DNA from: Rhizomicrobium sp.
GTDB taxonomy: Bacteria > Pseudomonadota > Alphaproteobacteria > Micropepsales > Micropepsaceae
DNA length: 64,000 nt
NCBI GenBank assembly: GCA_037200385.1
Contig: JBBCGL010000001.1
Location: 3,363,418-3,427,417, forward strand
Direction of reading: 5' to 3'
Shown here one piece after another: positions 25,462-32,080 of this stretch. A program made the translations under genes and the position numbers. The notes under the pieces were generated by a model that did not search any database, was not told where the DNA came from, and saw only the letters and a list, made by a program, of their open reading frames with translations. Every line of letters starts with the position of its first letter. Positions within the stretch are counted from its first letter, which is position 1.

Positions 25462-26409
25462 ATGCTCACCGTCGCGATCCAGATGGACCCGATCGAGAAG
25501 ATCGATATCGGCGGCGATTCGACCTTTGCGCTGGCGCTGGAGGCGCAGGCGCGTGGCCATGCGCTGCTCTATTACGGCCCGCGCGACCTGTCGTTCCGCG
25601 AAGGCAAGGTCACCGCGCGCGTTCGGTCCTTGAGCGTGCGCGCCGTGAAAGGCGATCACTTCACCCTGGGCGAGAAGCAGGTCTACGACCTCTCGCAGGC
25701 CGATGTCGTGCTGATGCGGCAGGATCCGCCCTTCGACATGGCCTACATCACCGCGACGCATGTCCTGGAGAACATCCATCCCAAGACCCTGGTGGTGAAC
25801 GATCCCGGCCATGTCCGCAACGCGCCGGAGAAGATCTTCGTCACCCAGTTCGAAGGCCTGATGCCGCCGACGCTGATCACCTCCGACCGCGCGGAGATCG
25901 ACAGCTTCCGTGCCCATCACAAGGACATCATCGTCAAGCCGCTCTACGGCAATGGCGGCGCCGGCGTCTTCCGCGTCAAGCCGGACGACGAGAATCTCGG
26001 CAGCCTGCTGGAGATGTTCACCGCCTTCTACCGCGAGCCGATCATCGTGCAGCGCTACCTGCCCGAGGTGCGCCAGGGCGACAAGCGCATCATCCTGGTC
26101 GACGGCGAGCCGGTGGGCGCGATCAATCGCGTGCCTGCGGCGGGCGAGGCGCGCTCCAACATGCATGTCGGCGGCCGGCCCGAGGCGACCGCGCTGACGG
26201 CGCGCGAGAAGCACATCTGCGCCACGATCGGCCCGGAGCTGAAGCGGCGCGGCCTGATCTTCACCGGCATCGACGTGATCGGCGACTACCTGACCGAGAT
26301 CAACGTCACGAGCCCCACCGGCATCCACGAAGTGAAGCGCTTCGGCGGCGCCGACATCGCGGGGCTGGTGTGGGATGCGATCGAGAGACGGAAGGCTTTG
26401 GAAAAATAA
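25462..26409 (+). CDS. gshB: glutathione synthetase
   Basis: ATP-grasp ligase that joins gamma-glutamylcysteine and glycine. The prokaryotic GshB opening [25 protein letters not shown] is unmistakable, followed by [12 protein letters not shown]-grasp [15 protein letters not shown], and the C-terminal metal-binding [14 protein letters not shown]. Length 315 is normal. It ends the lpoA-side gene cluster; the next 385 bases are non-coding. Confidence 0.97.
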
Positions 26410-26794
26410 TTTCCGGCTAACAAAATATCGTCCGCCGCGATGCACGCGAAGCCTTATCCACGCTCCACTATGGATTTCGCCAGGCGATCTGCGTGTGTTG
26501 CCGCCATGTTCGCGGGGATAAGCGTGCGGCGAAAAAATTTCGCGCGGCCCTTGAACCGAGTCGGTCCGGCTCCCATTTGAACTACATCCCCGCAGGTATG
26601 CCCGCATTCGATTGAGTGGTTGTATTGAAAAATACGGCTCGGTAAGGTTGCGCCGCCCGAGGGGGGAGATTCGGGCATAGCTCCGGCCGTCAGAGACGGG
26701 ACTTCTGCCGACAGGCAGAAGCCGCCGCTGTATTGCCACCAGCCTTCATCCGCAAAGCACTCTCCCTCGGCGCAGTTTGCGGCAGGAAGACGTG
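26410..26794 (+). other. 385-bp non-coding region with several possible RNA stems
   Basis: No gene is seen. The DNA looks less GC-rich than its flanks. Three complementary pairs are visible. TATGCCCG (26597-26604) pairs with CGGGCATA (26672-26679). A perfect 8-bp tetraloop hairpin has CTTCTGCC at 26702-26709 and GGCAGAAG at 26714-26721. CCGCAAA (26750-26756) pairs with TTTGCGG (26776-26782), just before the Shine-Dalgarno of the next gene. A structured leader or small RNA is possible. Confidence 0.5.
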
Positions 26795-28735
26795 ATGCCA
26801 CGGAAGAAAAGCACTTCACACATCTCCACGGAGAATGCGGGCGTTCAGTTCGTGGCGTCGCCGGTCACTGTCGGCGATCTCATCGTTCGCTGCTTTCCGG
26901 AGGGCACGCAAATCGAGGTGCTGACGGACGAGTCCGGACTTCGCATCGAAAAAGTGGTGGGACCCGCGGGACCGTCTTGGAAGGAAGCGCCGCGGTTTCC
27001 CCCCGATCTGTTTGCGATCTGCGGCCTGCTGCTCAATCTCAGCGGCGCGGTGCACCACACCGGTTCGCCGAACAAGTTGGCGGGCGCCCACCCGGCGCAT
27101 CGCTCGATCGTCCTGTCGGAAGAGACGCGCAGCGTCCTGCCCAAGGTTGCGGCGGACTGGCGCAACATGAAGGTCGGAGGGCGCGACGAGTTTCCTCCGT
27201 TCATTGCCGAGAAATGGAGAGAGCTTCTTTCGGCGTGGCCGCAGCCCGTTTTCAAGGTCTTCAAGCCCGGCGAGAAGACGCCGGACTGGTGGACCATCAC
27301 CCTGGAGCTATTCGTCATCGCCGACGAGGCGGCGCTCAGCTTGGGTTTTCAGGGATCGGAAAACTCGCGCAGCAAGCTGTGGGCTTTCTATCAAGCGTAT
27401 CTCGCGTCGAATGAAAAGGAGTCCGTCGAGGAAGAGCGTGCCGAGGAAGAAGCCGAAAACGACGATCAGCACGTGACCGAGTCGGACACCGATCCCGCGA
27501 CGGGCCGCTATACGCTCTCGACCATCTCACCTGACATCGCCTGTGTCCTTCCCAAATCGCGGACGGCACAAGTCGGGTGCACGCTGAGATCGTTGTCGCA
27601 TCATCTGGCGCTCGTTCCGCCTCGCGGCCTTGCGCGCGCCTATTGGATCGCGCCGCCCGCCGAGATCTTCAAGCTGCGGGACGATACCGAGCCCCTGAAC
27701 CTGCTGCTGGTGCCGTGGCCCTACGATCTTCCCGCGTCCAGTTTCAAGCCCGAGACGTCCTTCAACGACGATCCGAACCATCGCTGGGGCTGGTTCGGCG
27801 TGCGGCAGAACTGGGGCCCGGACCTTCCCGAGAATCCACGCAAGCTTGCCAAGCATATCGAGCTGCTCGCCGAGGTGGGGGCGAAGAAGGCGGGTCCGAT
27901 ACACGGCATCGTGTTGCCCGAGATGGCGATCACCTACGACACGTTCAAGGCGATCCGGAAGCTGATCGAAGAGGCGACCGATCCCAACGACGCATTCTAC
28001 GACATCGAGCTCCTCGTCGCCGGCGTGCGAACGAACTCGCTGGGAAAGGCGGGCAACTATGCCGCGGCATGCATCTTCTCGCGGCCGACGCGGAAGAAGG
28101 ATTCGCTCGACCTGACGCGTCTCTCGATCCTTCATCTCCAGCCCAAGCATCATCGCTGGCGGATCGACGCGCGGCAGGTCGCCACCTACGGCATCGGCTC
28201 AAGCCTCACCGCCGGCGTCACCTGGTGGGAAAATGTCCCGCTGCTCAGCCGCCGGATCAGCACCTTCGTTTTCCGCCGCGGCTCGACCTTCATTCCGTTG
28301 ATCTGCGAGGACCTCGCTCGCCTCGAGCCCGTCCACGATCTGGTGCGTTCGATCGGGCCGACCATCGTCTTTGCGCTTCTGATGGACGGTCCCCAGGTGC
28401 CGGCGCGCTGGCCGGGACGCTATGCGATGGGCCTGGCCGACGATCCGGGATGCTCCGTATTGACCTTGTCGTCGCTCGGCATCGTCAACCGTGCCGTCGA
28501 TAGGCCTCCGCCGGGCGTCGAACCGCGGCGCAGCATCGGCCTGTGGCGCGACGAGACCGGCGACACGCGCGAGATCGTGGTCGCGCCCGGGACCTGCGCC
28601 GTGGTGCTGTCGCTTTCCGGTCAACGCGTGAACGAGTTCACGGTCGACGGTCGCAGCGATGGCTTCACGGCAAGGCGGTGGGTGTATTCGGACCACATCG
28701 CCATCGATCATGCTTGCGAATTCCAGCCGAAATGA
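26795..28735 (+). CDS. uncharacterised protein with C-terminal nitrilase (C-N hydrolase) domain
   Basis: A 646-residue protein from an ATG preceded by AGGA; TTG or GTG starts 18 or 3 bases upstream are possible. Residues about 1-205 form an unrecognised domain with WWTITLELFVIADEAALSLGF near its end. An acidic linker (about 208-235, rich in Glu and Asp) follows. The C-terminal part (about 260-600) shows the nitrilase triad: Glu376 in GIVLPEMAI, Lys451 in HLQPKHHRW, and Cys504 in IPLICEDLA. Strand segments such as LNLLLVPWPYDLPAS and IVFALLMDG also fit. No signal peptide, membrane segment or reverse-transcriptase motif (no YxDD) is visible. It stands alone between non-coding stretches. Related nitrilase domains are known fused to defence reverse transcriptases (UG1/DRT1), so a role in conflict is an inference. 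A metabolic amidase is less likely because of the long N-terminal domain. Confidence 0.72.
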   Translation: MPRKKSTSHISTENAGVQFVASPVTVGDLIVRCFPEGTQIEVLTDESGLRIEKVVGPAGPSWKEAPRFPPDLFAICGLLLNLSGAVHHTGSPNKLAGAHPAHRSIVLSEETRSVLPKVAADWRNMKVGGRDEFPPFIAEKWRELLSAWPQPVFKVFKPGEKTPDWWTITLELFVIADEAALSLGFQGSENSRSKLWAFYQAYLASNEKESVEEERAEEEAENDDQHVTESDTDPATGRYTLSTISPDIACVLPKSRTAQVGCTLRSLSHHLALVPPRGLARAYWIAPPAEIFKLRDDTEPLNLLLVPWPYDLPASSFKPETSFNDDPNHRWGWFGVRQNWGPDLPENPRKLAKHIELLAEVGAKKAGPIHGIVLPEMAITYDTFKAIRKLIEEATDPNDAFYDIELLVAGVRTNSLGKAGNYAAACIFSRPTRKKDSLDLTRLSILHLQPKHHRWRIDARQVATYGIGSSLTAGVTWWENVPLLSRRISTFVFRRGSTFIPLICEDLARLEPVHDLVRSIGPTIVFALLMDGPQVPARWPGRYAMGLADDPGCSVLTLSSLGIVNRAVDRPPPGVEPRRSIGLWRDETGDTREIVVAPGTCAVVLSLSGQRVNEFTVDGRSDGFTARRWVYSDHIAIDHACEFQPK

Positions 28736-29126
28736 TGGGCCGGCGAGCGGCGCAAAAGCGTGACGTGCCGGTCATCTTTCCGCGGCCGCAACCCACCCGG
28801 GACGAAGCGCGTTTGGCAAGGGCGCACGGCAACGTGACGGCCTGCGGGTTGCAGAATCGCGTTTTGCGCCTATCTCTGTTAAGTGGTTGCCCTGGAATGG
28901 AAAACGTCATTTACGCGCAATTAGACTTCTTGGCGCATAGTCCCTTCCTCCCGCTCCCGGGAGGTGCTAAGCGTTGCCGCCAACGGGCCGGATTGACCGG
29001 TTCTGCGGTTCACTTTAGCCTCACCTGCCATGACGGTTCCGTAGCGACATCGGCCATCGGCTGCGGTCGCTCCTCGGAGGGGGAAACACCGCAGGCGGGC
29101 TCGGCGGTGTGCGAGCGAGGAATGCA
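28736..29126 (+). other. 391-bp region without a convincing gene
   Basis: Short frames here look like shadows. A perfect 7-bp hairpin (CCTCCCG / CGGGAGG, loop CTCC) lies at 28947-28964 without a T-run. No tRNA cloverleaf or tmRNA signature was found. The last bases contain the Shine-Dalgarno GAGG of the small frame that follows. Confidence 0.4.
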
Positions 29127-29324
29127 ATGCTTCGGATGAATCGCGATTTTTCAATCGCACTATCTGACTATCGCGACCGTCTCATGGAAGAGATCATCAA
29201 CGACGTCGCTGCGCCGTCTCAGCAGCATACCGCTCCCAAGCGCCCGGCGCGAAGGAACACCGGCAACACGACCCAAGACACGACGCGACCGCCGGCGCCT
29301 GCCGCGCGCCAGGATCGCCGATAA
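29127..29324 (+). CDS. possible 65-residue small protein
   Basis: Begins at an ATG six bases after CGAGG. The N-terminal half is a plausible amphipathic helix (NRDFSIALSDYRDRLMEEI); the C-terminal half is polar, basic and Pro/Thr-rich, probably disordered. It resembles no family I know. Support is the ribosome binding site and the non-random N-terminal helix, so confidence is modest. It is on the same strand as the nitrilase-domain gene, about 390 bases downstream. Confidence 0.4.
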   Translation: MLRMNRDFSIALSDYRDRLMEEIINDVAAPSQQHTAPKRPARRNTGNTTQDTTRPPAPAARQDRR

Positions 29325-29426
29325 TCGGTGCATTGCTGTCGCGCAAGAGCGCGGCATTCCTTCCGCGAAAATTCAGATCGCCACCGCCATGAGGCGAGCG
29401 TTCGGCATCTTCTTCAAGCCAGACTT

Positions 29427-30266
29427 CTACTCCGCCAGCCCGAACCGGCTGCGATAGCGCGGGTCTATCCCCGAGAGCGGGAAATAGATGAAGACGTCGA
29501 TGGTCGAGAACTGCTTGTCGATCACCGCGCCGTCGCCGATGCAGGCGCCGGCGCGCAGATAGCCCTTCAGCAGCGCCGGGGCCGCGCGCAGCCCTTCCTT
29601 GGGATCGATCTGGTCCTTCGGGATACGATCCATCGGCACATAGAGCTCGGGCCGCGCCCGTACCTCGAAGCCCGCCGGGATTGGATAGAAGTGATGCATG
29701 TAGGACAGCGGCAGCGCGATGGCGTCCGGATCGGTGCCGGGGATCGAGGCGCAGCCGAACATCACGTCGATGGAGAAGCGCGCGACATAGGCGAGCAGGC
29801 CCTTCCACAAGAGCTGCATCGTCGTAGTGCGGTTGCGATAGGCCTTGAGCACGCAGGAGCGGCCGAGCTCCAGGAAGCGCGAGCCGGGCGGATGGCCTTT
29901 CAGCATGCGCGAGATGTCGAACTCGCCCGCAGTGTAGAAGCCGCCGGCGCGCACCGCATCGACGTCGCGGGTCAGGCGGTAGGTGCCGACGACCAGCGGC
30001 TGGCCGTCCTCGCCCACCGCGCTGCGGTCGACGACCAGGAGGTGGTCGCAGACCTCGTCATACTTGTCGAAGTCGCGCCGCTCCTCGCGCATCTGCGGCG
30101 ACGGCACCGCGGCCATCTCTTCATAGAAGACGTGATAGCGCAGCTTCTGCGCCTGTTCGACCTCGCCCTCGGTCTCGGCCAGGCGCACTTCCAGCGCGCC
30201 CGCGGTCGCAAGGACGGGCCATTGCGCAAGTCTGCGCTCGAAAGAGCCAGGCTCGTGAATGTTCAC
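29427..30266 (-). CDS. OlsB-like GNAT N-acyltransferase
   Basis: Member of the acetyltransferase family that includes OlsB, which adds a 3-hydroxy fatty acid from acyl-ACP to ornithine in ornithine-lipid synthesis. Typical blocks are LRYHVFYEEM, DEVCDHLLVVDR, GTYRLTR, GEFDISRML, FLELGRSCVLKAYRN, and LPLSYMHHFYPIP. A C-terminal segment (DPKEGLRAAPALLKGYLRAGACIG) precedes the end. There is no ATG near the start; GTG at 30266 gives 279 residues, and the frame stays open further upstream. It follows the AmpG-type gene on the same strand. Other N-acyl amino acid synthases are possible. Confidence 0.8.
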   Translation of the reverse strand: MNIHEPGSFERRLAQWPVLATAGALEVRLAETEGEVEQAQKLRYHVFYEEMAAVPSPQMREERRDFDKYDEVCDHLLVVDRSAVGEDGQPLVVGTYRLTRDVDAVRAGGFYTAGEFDISRMLKGHPPGSRFLELGRSCVLKAYRNRTTTMQLLWKGLLAYVARFSIDVMFGCASIPGTDPDAIALPLSYMHHFYPIPAGFEVRARPELYVPMDRIPKDQIDPKEGLRAAPALLKGYLRAGACIGDGAVIDKQFSTIDVFIYFPLSGIDPRYRSRFGLAE

Positions 30267-30373
30267 CAAGCGAAAAATCCTATCGGGAAGGCGCCGACTG
30301 TTCTGCAGCCAGCTGGCCCGCTCCTCCAGCCATTTTACCGCAAGCGCCCCCGCACAGGCAAACCGTCTGCGCC

Positions 30374-32080
30374 TCAGGCGGCCGGTTCCGCCGGCCTGGC
30401 CGGCTGGTAACGCAGCACCAGGACGGACAGGATCATGGAAACCACGCCCACCAGTCCCGAATATAAAAAGAATACGACATAGCCCGAGCCCAGCGCCGCC
30501 GGCGCGACATGCGACTTGACCATGGCGCCCGCGAAGGCCGCGGGCGGGGTGTGCGCGAACAGCCCCTGCAGGAAGGCGAGCGGACCGCCATGTTCCGAGG
30601 CCGCCGCGGCGCTCTCGACGATCCGCCCCGACAGCGAGGCGATCAGCTTGCCGGGCAGGGAATAGAGCGAGGAGAACAGCGCATATTGCGTCGCGGTGAA
30701 GCCGACGCTGGTCAGGCTCGACATATAGGCGACGAGACAGGTCCCGGCATAGCCCGAGACCACATTGTCGATGCCGATGGCGATGAACAGCGCCGTCATG
30801 TCCGGCCCCTGCGTCGCCAGCCAGGCGAAGATCGTGTTGGTGATCGGCAGCGCGAAGGCGCCCACCACCAGGGCGCGCATGATCCCGAACCGCGCGATGG
30901 ACCAGCCGCCCGCGAACACCCCCAGCATCGACATCGCCACCCCGAACACCTTGCGGGCCTCGGCGATCTGCGTCTTGGAGAAGCCGAGATCGAGATAGAA
31001 CGGCGTCATGATGTTGAGGACGAAATCGGACAGCCGATAGAGGCAGATCAGCGCCAGGATCAGCCACGCGACCTTGCCGAAGCGCGCGAAGAAATCGGCC
31101 AGCGGATCGCCGAGCGCATGGCTGATATAGGTGCCGGGCCGCGTCCTCACATGCGGCAGCGGATAGGCTGCCAGGCCGATCACCGCGAAGCCGCAGAGCA
31201 CGCCGACAAGTTGCAGCCAGATGCCGTTCGGCTTGGCCGTCCAGGCCGCCTGCAGTGCAGCACCGGCATCGCCGAAGCCGGCAAGCCCGAGCAGCTTCTG
31301 CAGGATGCCCGCATCGGCGATCAGGCCCGAGCCCAGGAACAACGCGCCCGCGGCGATCAGCGCGAAGCGCGCTGCCCATTCGAGGCCTTCGAGCAGCGGC
31401 GAACCCTTGCCGCCATCGGTCGGCAGCGGTTTGATGACATGCGCCTGCTCGCGCGGCGCGGCGAGCACCGCCAGCATGCCGATCAGCATCAGCCCCGCCA
31501 TCAGGCCATAGGAGAGATTCCAGCCCAGCCGGTCGGCGAGGATCAGCGGCACGGCACCGGCCACGATGATCGCGATGCGATAGCCCCATTGATAGGCCGC
31601 CGCCATCGCGCCCTGGCGCGAAACGTCGGCCGCCTCGATGCGCCAGGCGTCGATCACGATATCCTGGGTGGCCGAGGAGAAGCCGGTGAACACGGCGAAC
31701 ACCGCGACCAGCGCGAGGTTGCCTTTCGGGTCGGAGGTCGACACCGCCAGCAGCCCCAGCGTGATCGCGACCTGCGCCACCAGCATCCAGGAGCGGCGAT
31801 GGCCGAGCCAGCCGGTCAGGCCGGGCACGGCCAGCCGGTCGATCAGCGGCGCCCAGAGGAACTTGAAGGAATAGGAGATCGTCGCCAGGCTGAAGAAGGA
31901 GATGACTTCGAGCGACAGCCCCGAATCGCGCAGCCAGGCCGACAGCGTGTCGAACACCAGCAGGTTGGGCAGCCCCGCCGCGAAGCCCAGCGCCAGCATG
32001 ACCACGGTGCGGCGTTCCGCGAAAACCGCAAGGGCCGAGAAAAGACCGCGCGCGCGAGGCGGCGCGTCATCACCGCTCAT
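30374..32080 (-). CDS. AmpG-type MFS permease
   Basis: A 568-residue major facilitator protein resembling AmpG, which imports GlcNAc-1,6-anhydro-MurNAc peptides during cell-wall recycling. The AmpG-like N-terminus LGFAAGLPNLLVFDTLSAWLRDSG, SYSFKFLWAPLIDR, GHRRSWML and ATQDIVIDAWRIE are all present, with 12-14 hydrophobic segments. It is longer than E. coli AmpG because of a mid-protein insertion (about 215-300). The ATG overlaps the upstream kinase stop codon (ATGA). Anhydromuropeptides would come from MltA-type enzymes such as the one at 9.6 kb. Confidence 0.85.
   Translation of the reverse strand: MSGDDAPPRARGLFSALAVFAERRTVVMLALGFAAGLPNLLVFDTLSAWLRDSGLSLEVISFFSLATISYSFKFLWAPLIDRLAVPGLTGWLGHRRSWMLVAQVAITLGLLAVSTSDPKGNLALVAVFAVFTGFSSATQDIVIDAWRIEAADVSRQGAMAAAYQWGYRIAIIVAGAVPLILADRLGWNLSYGLMAGLMLIGMLAVLAAPREQAHVIKPLPTDGGKGSPLLEGLEWAARFALIAAGALFLGSGLIADAGILQKLLGLAGFGDAGAALQAAWTAKPNGIWLQLVGVLCGFAVIGLAAYPLPHVRTRPGTYISHALGDPLADFFARFGKVAWLILALICLYRLSDFVLNIMTPFYLDLGFSKTQIAEARKVFGVAMSMLGVFAGGWSIARFGIMRALVVGAFALPITNTIFAWLATQGPDMTALFIAIGIDNVVSGYAGTCLVAYMSSLTSVGFTATQYALFSSLYSLPGKLIASLSGRIVESAAAASEHGGPLAFLQGLFAHTPPAAFAGAMVKSHVAPAALGSGYVVFFLYSGLVGVVSMILSVLVLRYQPARPAEPAA

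Follow-up and report, generated by a model that had tools for sequence, protein, structure and literature searches.

One gene of the window, by which we mean the whole 64,000-nucleotide stretch of Rhizomicrobium sp. DNA analysed here, raises the question of whether its nitrilase-type product takes part in conflict with phages or serves metabolism. The gene is real, conserved and mobile, and it is without a name in the libraries searched. From the comparisons given below, it is probably a conflict gene.

Gene product, active site and predicted fold

The reading frame runs from an ATG at 26795 to a stop ending at 28735 and translates to 646 aa, while an alternative start, the TTG at 26777, lies upstream and would lengthen the protein by 6 aa. 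The domains, the triad codons and the flanking genes are placed in Table 1.

Table 1. Features of the nitrilase-type gene and of its insertion site, in window coordinates
Feature	Position	Strand	Remarks and basis
Nitrilase-type gene	26795..28735	+	646 aa: N-terminal helical domain, acidic linker, nitrilase-type domain
N-terminal domain, ~residues 22-218	26858..27448	+	Mostly helical; model, alignment
Acidic low-confidence linker, ~residues 219-245	27449..27529	+	Sequence, AlphaFold2
Predicted nitrilase-superfamily domain, ~residues 246-640	27530..28714	+	AlphaFold2, Foldseek, profile comparison
Glu376 codon (triad)	27920..27922	+	Alignment
Lys451 codon (triad)	28145..28147	+	Alignment
Cys504 codon (triad; nucleophile by analogy)	28304..28306	+	Alignment
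Left flank, glutathione-synthetase-like	25462..26409	+	Name by reading; kept in genus
Right flank, ornithine-lipid-acyltransferase-like	29427..30290	-	Name by reading; 5' end approximate
Stretch absent from close relative G066 (L150)	26595..29431	.	Flank comparison

A sequence-only reading of this DNA had described a complete triad of Glu376, Lys451 and Cys504, and both the residues and their numbering hold. Glu376 lies in a PE, Lys451 in KHHRW and Cys504 in CEDLAR, and all three are invariant in 12/12, 54/54 and 97/97 aligned rows, the 97-row alignment taking in the window protein and some near-duplicate rows. The Glu-Lys-Cys triad characteristic of the nitrilase superfamily is hence present in every row. 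The patterns used to find relatives combined the Cys motif with LLMDGPQ on genome contigs and KHHRW with LLMDGP on viral contigs; the Cys, and for three viral loci the Lys, were therefore partly selected for, whereas the Glu was not. In nitrilases the Cys attacks an amide-like carbon and the Glu and Lys assist. Within the N-terminal domain, D177 is kept in 97/97 rows and F73 in the 94/94 rows that cover it.

Searched alone at E up to 10, the window protein matches no model of Pfam, PADLOC or NCBIfam, and PHROGs gives no match at E up to 0.1; for this reason genes of this family go unnamed. Rfam likewise gave no match over 26000-30400 at E up to 0.1.

The full-length AlphaFold2 model, built with 54 sequences, is predicted as a monomer with a pLDDT of 87.4 and a pTM of 0.90; pLDDT falls below 50 at residues 1-19 and at residues 220-236, the latter within the acidic linker that the sequence-only reading had also pointed out. 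Against the PDB, Foldseek returned 51 matches at E <=0.001, and all 50 listed are nitrilase-superfamily structures (E 1e-5 to 9e-4, TM by target up to 0.55) with formamidase 5g3o at the top (E 1e-5, TM by target 0.52). Formamidase, NAD-synthetase, beta-ureidopropionase and Nit2 head the solved folds; vanin-1, which we take to be a nitrilase-superfamily member, is among the matches as well. Given the large rmsd (about 6-16 A), the claim is limited to fold class, and at this level the model and the structure search agree in supporting the nitrilase fold that had been proposed for the C-terminal domain. The window protein resembles the nitrilase-superfamily amidases (formamidase 5g3o, Nit2, beta-ureidopropionase, the glutaminase domain of NAD-synthetase) in fold and in the Glu-Lys-Cys triad; it differs from them by its extra N-terminal domain and its own motifs KHHRW, CEDLAR and DGPQ, by an identity of 9-16 percent among the Foldseek rows listed, and by being missed by the Pfam and NCBIfam models.

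The N-terminal part modelled alone (residues 22-250) reached a pLDDT of 82.3, and Foldseek found for it no solved fold at E <=0.001 and none with a probability >0.03. The domain also matched no known sequence domain in Pfam or NCBIfam, amidotransferase and substrate domains included, a match to which had been named beforehand as a reason to abandon the defence proposal; the earlier failure to place this domain is thus borne out. Searching the PDB sequences by means of the family profile yielded 5 matches, all at chance level.

The gene is accessory and horizontally mobile

In the close relative G066 (L150), 43 bases replace 2,837 bases of the window, and in this inserted stretch of ~2.8 kb the nitrilase-type gene is the sole convincing gene. 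The left-flank gene is present in 64/68 genomes of the genus, the gene's own included, and we examined the 29 best left-flank loci out of the 63 other genomes that have it. The right-flank gene lies <=1.5 kb away in 23/29 of these (gaps of 19-1360 bases) and none of the 23 has the nitrilase-type gene between the flanks, while the other 6/29 show no right-flank match within the stretch examined. A second copy in the same genus, L057 (G056), lies on a different contig from the left-flank gene of its genome and falls into a different supported clade from the window gene. The insert has a G+C content of 0.629, below the mean of 0.674 (sd 0.021). By reading, no integrase was found inside the insert, and no repeat pair among the repeats listed links the two insertion borders. 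Downstream of the nitrilase-type gene, the inserted stretch also holds a small candidate open frame (29127-29324, + strand). The view of the sequence-only reading that the gene is a stand-alone accessory insertion therefore agrees with the empty site in close relatives and with the lack of a convincing partner open reading frame (ORF) at the window locus.

Relatives were sought in several collections. A scan of genome contigs with the window protein alone confirmed zero relatives, whereas the 12-row alignment gave 175, the best 80 of which were used; the pattern scan of viral contigs gave 3. By tblastn, 12 plasmid records, some of them near-duplicates, contain relatives with an identity of 27-38 percent. 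Four of these records were typed as conjugative, 1 as mobilizable and 7 as non-mobilizable, and the plasmid-borne copies include ones from Deinococcus and Vibrio. Complete and plausibly started frames were picked by eye from 53/83 relative loci and form, with the window protein, the 54-member set used below. The gene occurs in 2/96 genomes of its own taxonomic family, its own genome included, and in 6/387 genomes of the class, 4 of them with a full-length copy. In a tree of 64 rows, 48 have a named class (39 Alphaproteobacteria, 6 Betaproteobacteria, and one each of Myxococcia, Blastocatellia and Gammaproteobacteria) and 16 have none. The tree mixes hosts, as shown by a Qipengyuania copy that pairs with an Agrobacterium plasmid copy (support 98). 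Two incomplete or split copies were seen: an N-terminal piece beside a transposase-like gene where a contig ends (L103:29-490, G281) and a Jannaschia copy in two open pieces (L047:9725-11737).

The 3/3 loci from the viral collection lie near phage genes, namely an integrase and tail genes (L096, the only one of the three with an integrase), a portal and a terminase (L097), and an endolysin and a tail-fibre-type gene (L095); these contigs may be prophages. By reading, the copy of Caulobacter sp. RHG1 (L042) is preceded by an integrase-like gene, itself preceded by a guaA-like gene. Counted against a conflict role, a tblastn search of 50,697 phage records gave no match and the pattern scan of viral contigs gave the 3 loci just described. 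The gene is both mobile and patchy in distribution, as anti-phage defence systems are, and a conflict role is favoured because copies are carried on plasmids and in phage contigs. Our best explanation, held with as much doubt as confidence, is that the gene encodes a conflict protein that stands alone and has spread by horizontal transfer, and that this protein most likely makes up an anti-phage system by itself.

Neighbouring genes, metabolism and possible partners

Neighbour genes of the family loci were called with a home-made script, shadow frames included, and random draws were taken from a near set (133/319) and a far set (148/222). The PADLOC models matched numbered 132 for the 133 near proteins and 27 for the 148 far ones, these counts being of models and not of proteins. 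BrxL, GajB, CD-NTase and JAB are among the 25 models listed for the near set, and the far set also holds defence models (REase_I, mads). Since PADLOC counts models, 25 of them are listed and defence models occur in the far set, no enrichment is claimed. Carriage on plasmids and phage contigs favours a conflict role, and the neighbour survey gave no defence-gene enrichment; the earlier proposal of defence proper stays an inference.

Some single loci do have suggestive surroundings. A CBASS-type phospholipase adjoins the nitrilase gene at L030, the region of L010 contains TIR, E2, cyclase and SIR2 genes, and L006 has DGQHR, radical SAM and PIN-like genes nearby. At two Bradyrhizobium loci a nucleoside 2-deoxyribosyltransferase gene (PF05014; L016:5244-5735 and L019:11810-12307) follows the nitrilase gene by 12-15 bases, which could point to a role linked to nucleotides. 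The P-loop proteins encoded upstream at L057 and at L006 are not alike.

The protein could also be an accessory metabolic amidase or nitrilase, that is a plasmid-spread niche enzyme for a special nitrogen compound, whose N-terminal domain would bind substrate or set the oligomer. Metabolic neighbours are indeed common (PhnJ, PGK, HSP90, histidyl-tRNA synthetase) and one genus keeps a fixed neighbourhood, as expected of a resident gene (L088, L099-L101), both of which count against a conflict role; one plasmid copy lies near nif genes, and the amidases that are the best solved folds and the profile tie with ordinary nitrilases given below point the same way. On the other side, no transporter, regulator or pathway gene stands in a fixed place beside the gene across genera, copies occur in phage contigs, NCBIfam nitrilase models match 0/54 members, and Pfam CN_hydrolase matches 1/54 (E 0.032) and leaves the window protein unmatched. 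The sequence-only reading had named embedding in a metabolic operon as a finding that would speak against it, and no such operon is shared across the loci, with the exception of the one genus just mentioned. We consider the metabolic explanation unlikely.

A further reading, which appears improbable, makes the protein one half, the effector, of a two-gene system: in some clades a small gene directly 3' would control the nitrilase, and the window branch would have lost this gene or moved its job into the N-terminal domain. Small ORFs that start -50 to +67 bases from the nitrilase stop form four BLAST clusters (L008, L082, L093; L074, L075, L091, L095; L004, L096, L097; L076, L077, L080). However, these ORFs were called mechanically, the clusters may be unrelated to one another, and many loci, the window included, have no convincing partner. 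As separate observations, the small genes directly 3' of the nitrilase in L008, L074, L075, L082, L091, L093 and L095 have a similar N-terminal start, as by eye do those of L067 and L092, and may encode a regulator or partner; a 133-aa-type gene lies upstream in L009, L043 and L055. In the search for a conserved operon partner, these small genes were the only neighbours that recur across genera.

Relation to reverse transcriptase-linked nitrilases

Nitrilase domains are known from phage defence in company with a reverse transcriptase (RT). PMC13275509 (2026) reports that the RT-nitrilase DRT1 defends against phage, and that the DNA made by its RT both activates and restrains it, the nitrilase being the effector; in the same paper nitrilases are said to be uncommon in anti-phage defence and the substrate of the DRT1 nitrilase is left open. 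According to PMC9122126, the systems validated against phage include a UG5 RT-nitrilase together with a transmembrane protein. Among the matches listed from the PMC literature on nitrilase and defence, no title concerned an RT-free nitrilase defence gene.

In agreement with the sequence-only reading, no RT was found. The window protein has no Pfam match to an RT domain, none of the 22 Pfam families listed for the 54 members is an RT, and small profiles built from 6 DRT RTs and from 2 other RTs matched none of the 97 loci at E up to 0.1 (1.7 Mb in total, with as much as 10 kb of flank and a few of the loci overlapping); distant RT types could escape such profiles. The host genome has four CN_hydrolase matches and two RVT_1 matches, of which the nearer lies at a distance of ~345 kb.

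In PADLOC, the RT_UG5-nitrilase model matched 18 of the 54 members (best E 1.3e-7), RTasNitrilase 5 and Drt1a 4, and no model other than these three was matched at E up to 1; PHROGs gave two chance-level families, each matched by one member. On the family nitrilase profile, eight RT-nitrilase-model sequences score 7.6-18.2 bits and 31 ordinary nitrilases at most 9.7 bits, 6/8 of the former outscoring all of the latter. In the reverse search at E <0.01 a DRT-nitrilase profile finds 6/54 members and an ordinary one 0/54, although the median family scores are 5.0 and 5.7 bits respectively. An apparent greater nearness to the DRT nitrilases in hhalign (1.6e-7 vs 0.0052 with 4 ordinary nitrilases) was rejected, as with 31 ordinary nitrilases the two are tied (E 1.6e-7 and 1.8e-7); DRT and ordinary nitrilases match each other at E 1.9e-11. 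Kinship of the family to the DRT nitrilases is no more than suggestive, and because of this tie DRT descent is not claimed. That the gene descends from an RT-nitrilase that shed its RT and retained the effector is very improbable: the PADLOC matches and both profile searches favour it, but the scores are low and overlapping, the profile comparison is tied and the N-terminal part has no RT-like match.

Compared with DRT1 (UG1 RT-nitrilase; PDB 9YFD), the window protein likewise joins, within a single gene, a larger N-terminal part to a nitrilase domain at the C-terminus, and the Drt1a model matches 4/54 members; in contrast, DRT1 has an RT domain and 1229 aa. DRT1 is reported to form a filament with a swapped C-terminal lid. 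The UG5 RT-nitrilase, whose model matches the most members (18/54), aligns in the triad region and differs by its RT and its N-terminal domain. One UG5 RT-nitrilase copy with internal stops was noticed at L105 (G704). RTasNitrilase, an RT with a separate nitrilase, differs in that 0/97 family loci have an RT nearby with the RT profiles used. The model name is moreover no proof of RT linkage, since a strong RTasNitrilase-model match (L108:1450-2331), between flippase-like and glycosyltransferase-like genes by reading, has no RT within the stretch examined around it.

Returning to the one-gene anti-phage reading, we infer a defence role, a trigger, a substrate and a task for the N-terminal domain by analogy with DRT1. 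The effector would be the C-terminal nitrilase-type domain, in which Cys504 with Glu376 and Lys451 would hydrolyse an amide-like bond, either in a metabolite of the cell or in a component of the phage, and thereby bring growth or the production of phage to a halt. Tethered by its flexible acidic linker, the N-terminal helical domain would restrain the enzyme and respond to infection, thus occupying the controlling place that the RT holds in DRT1. More tentatively, the family may be a new type of anti-phage system that needs one gene and no RT, its N-terminal domain, which matches no solved fold, sensing infection and directly unleashing the nitrilase; nitrilase immunity would then be a category in its own right, with DRT1 and UG5 as its RT-controlled versions. 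An RT-free protein of ~600 aa with an intact triad would allow a nitrilase effector and its substrate to be studied without DNA synthesis interfering.

When sequences from outside the family are scored against its nitrilase profile, the best (61 bits) belongs to a second stand-alone nitrilase family, the L102 type of Azospirillum and Rhizobium plasmids. This type is like the present family in standing alone and differs by another N-terminal part and a length of ~490-510 aa; 2/10 Azospirillum records are annotated as nitrilase-related carbon-nitrogen hydrolase. On two Rhizobium plasmids the L102-type nitrilase lies behind a TPR-type gene (L179:3648-6891, L180:2391-7216), the two gene pairs being 54 and 60 percent alike, and SIR2 and deoxyribosyltransferase genes are nearby at L180. 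The TPR-type gene and the L102-type nitrilase possibly form a separate two-gene system.
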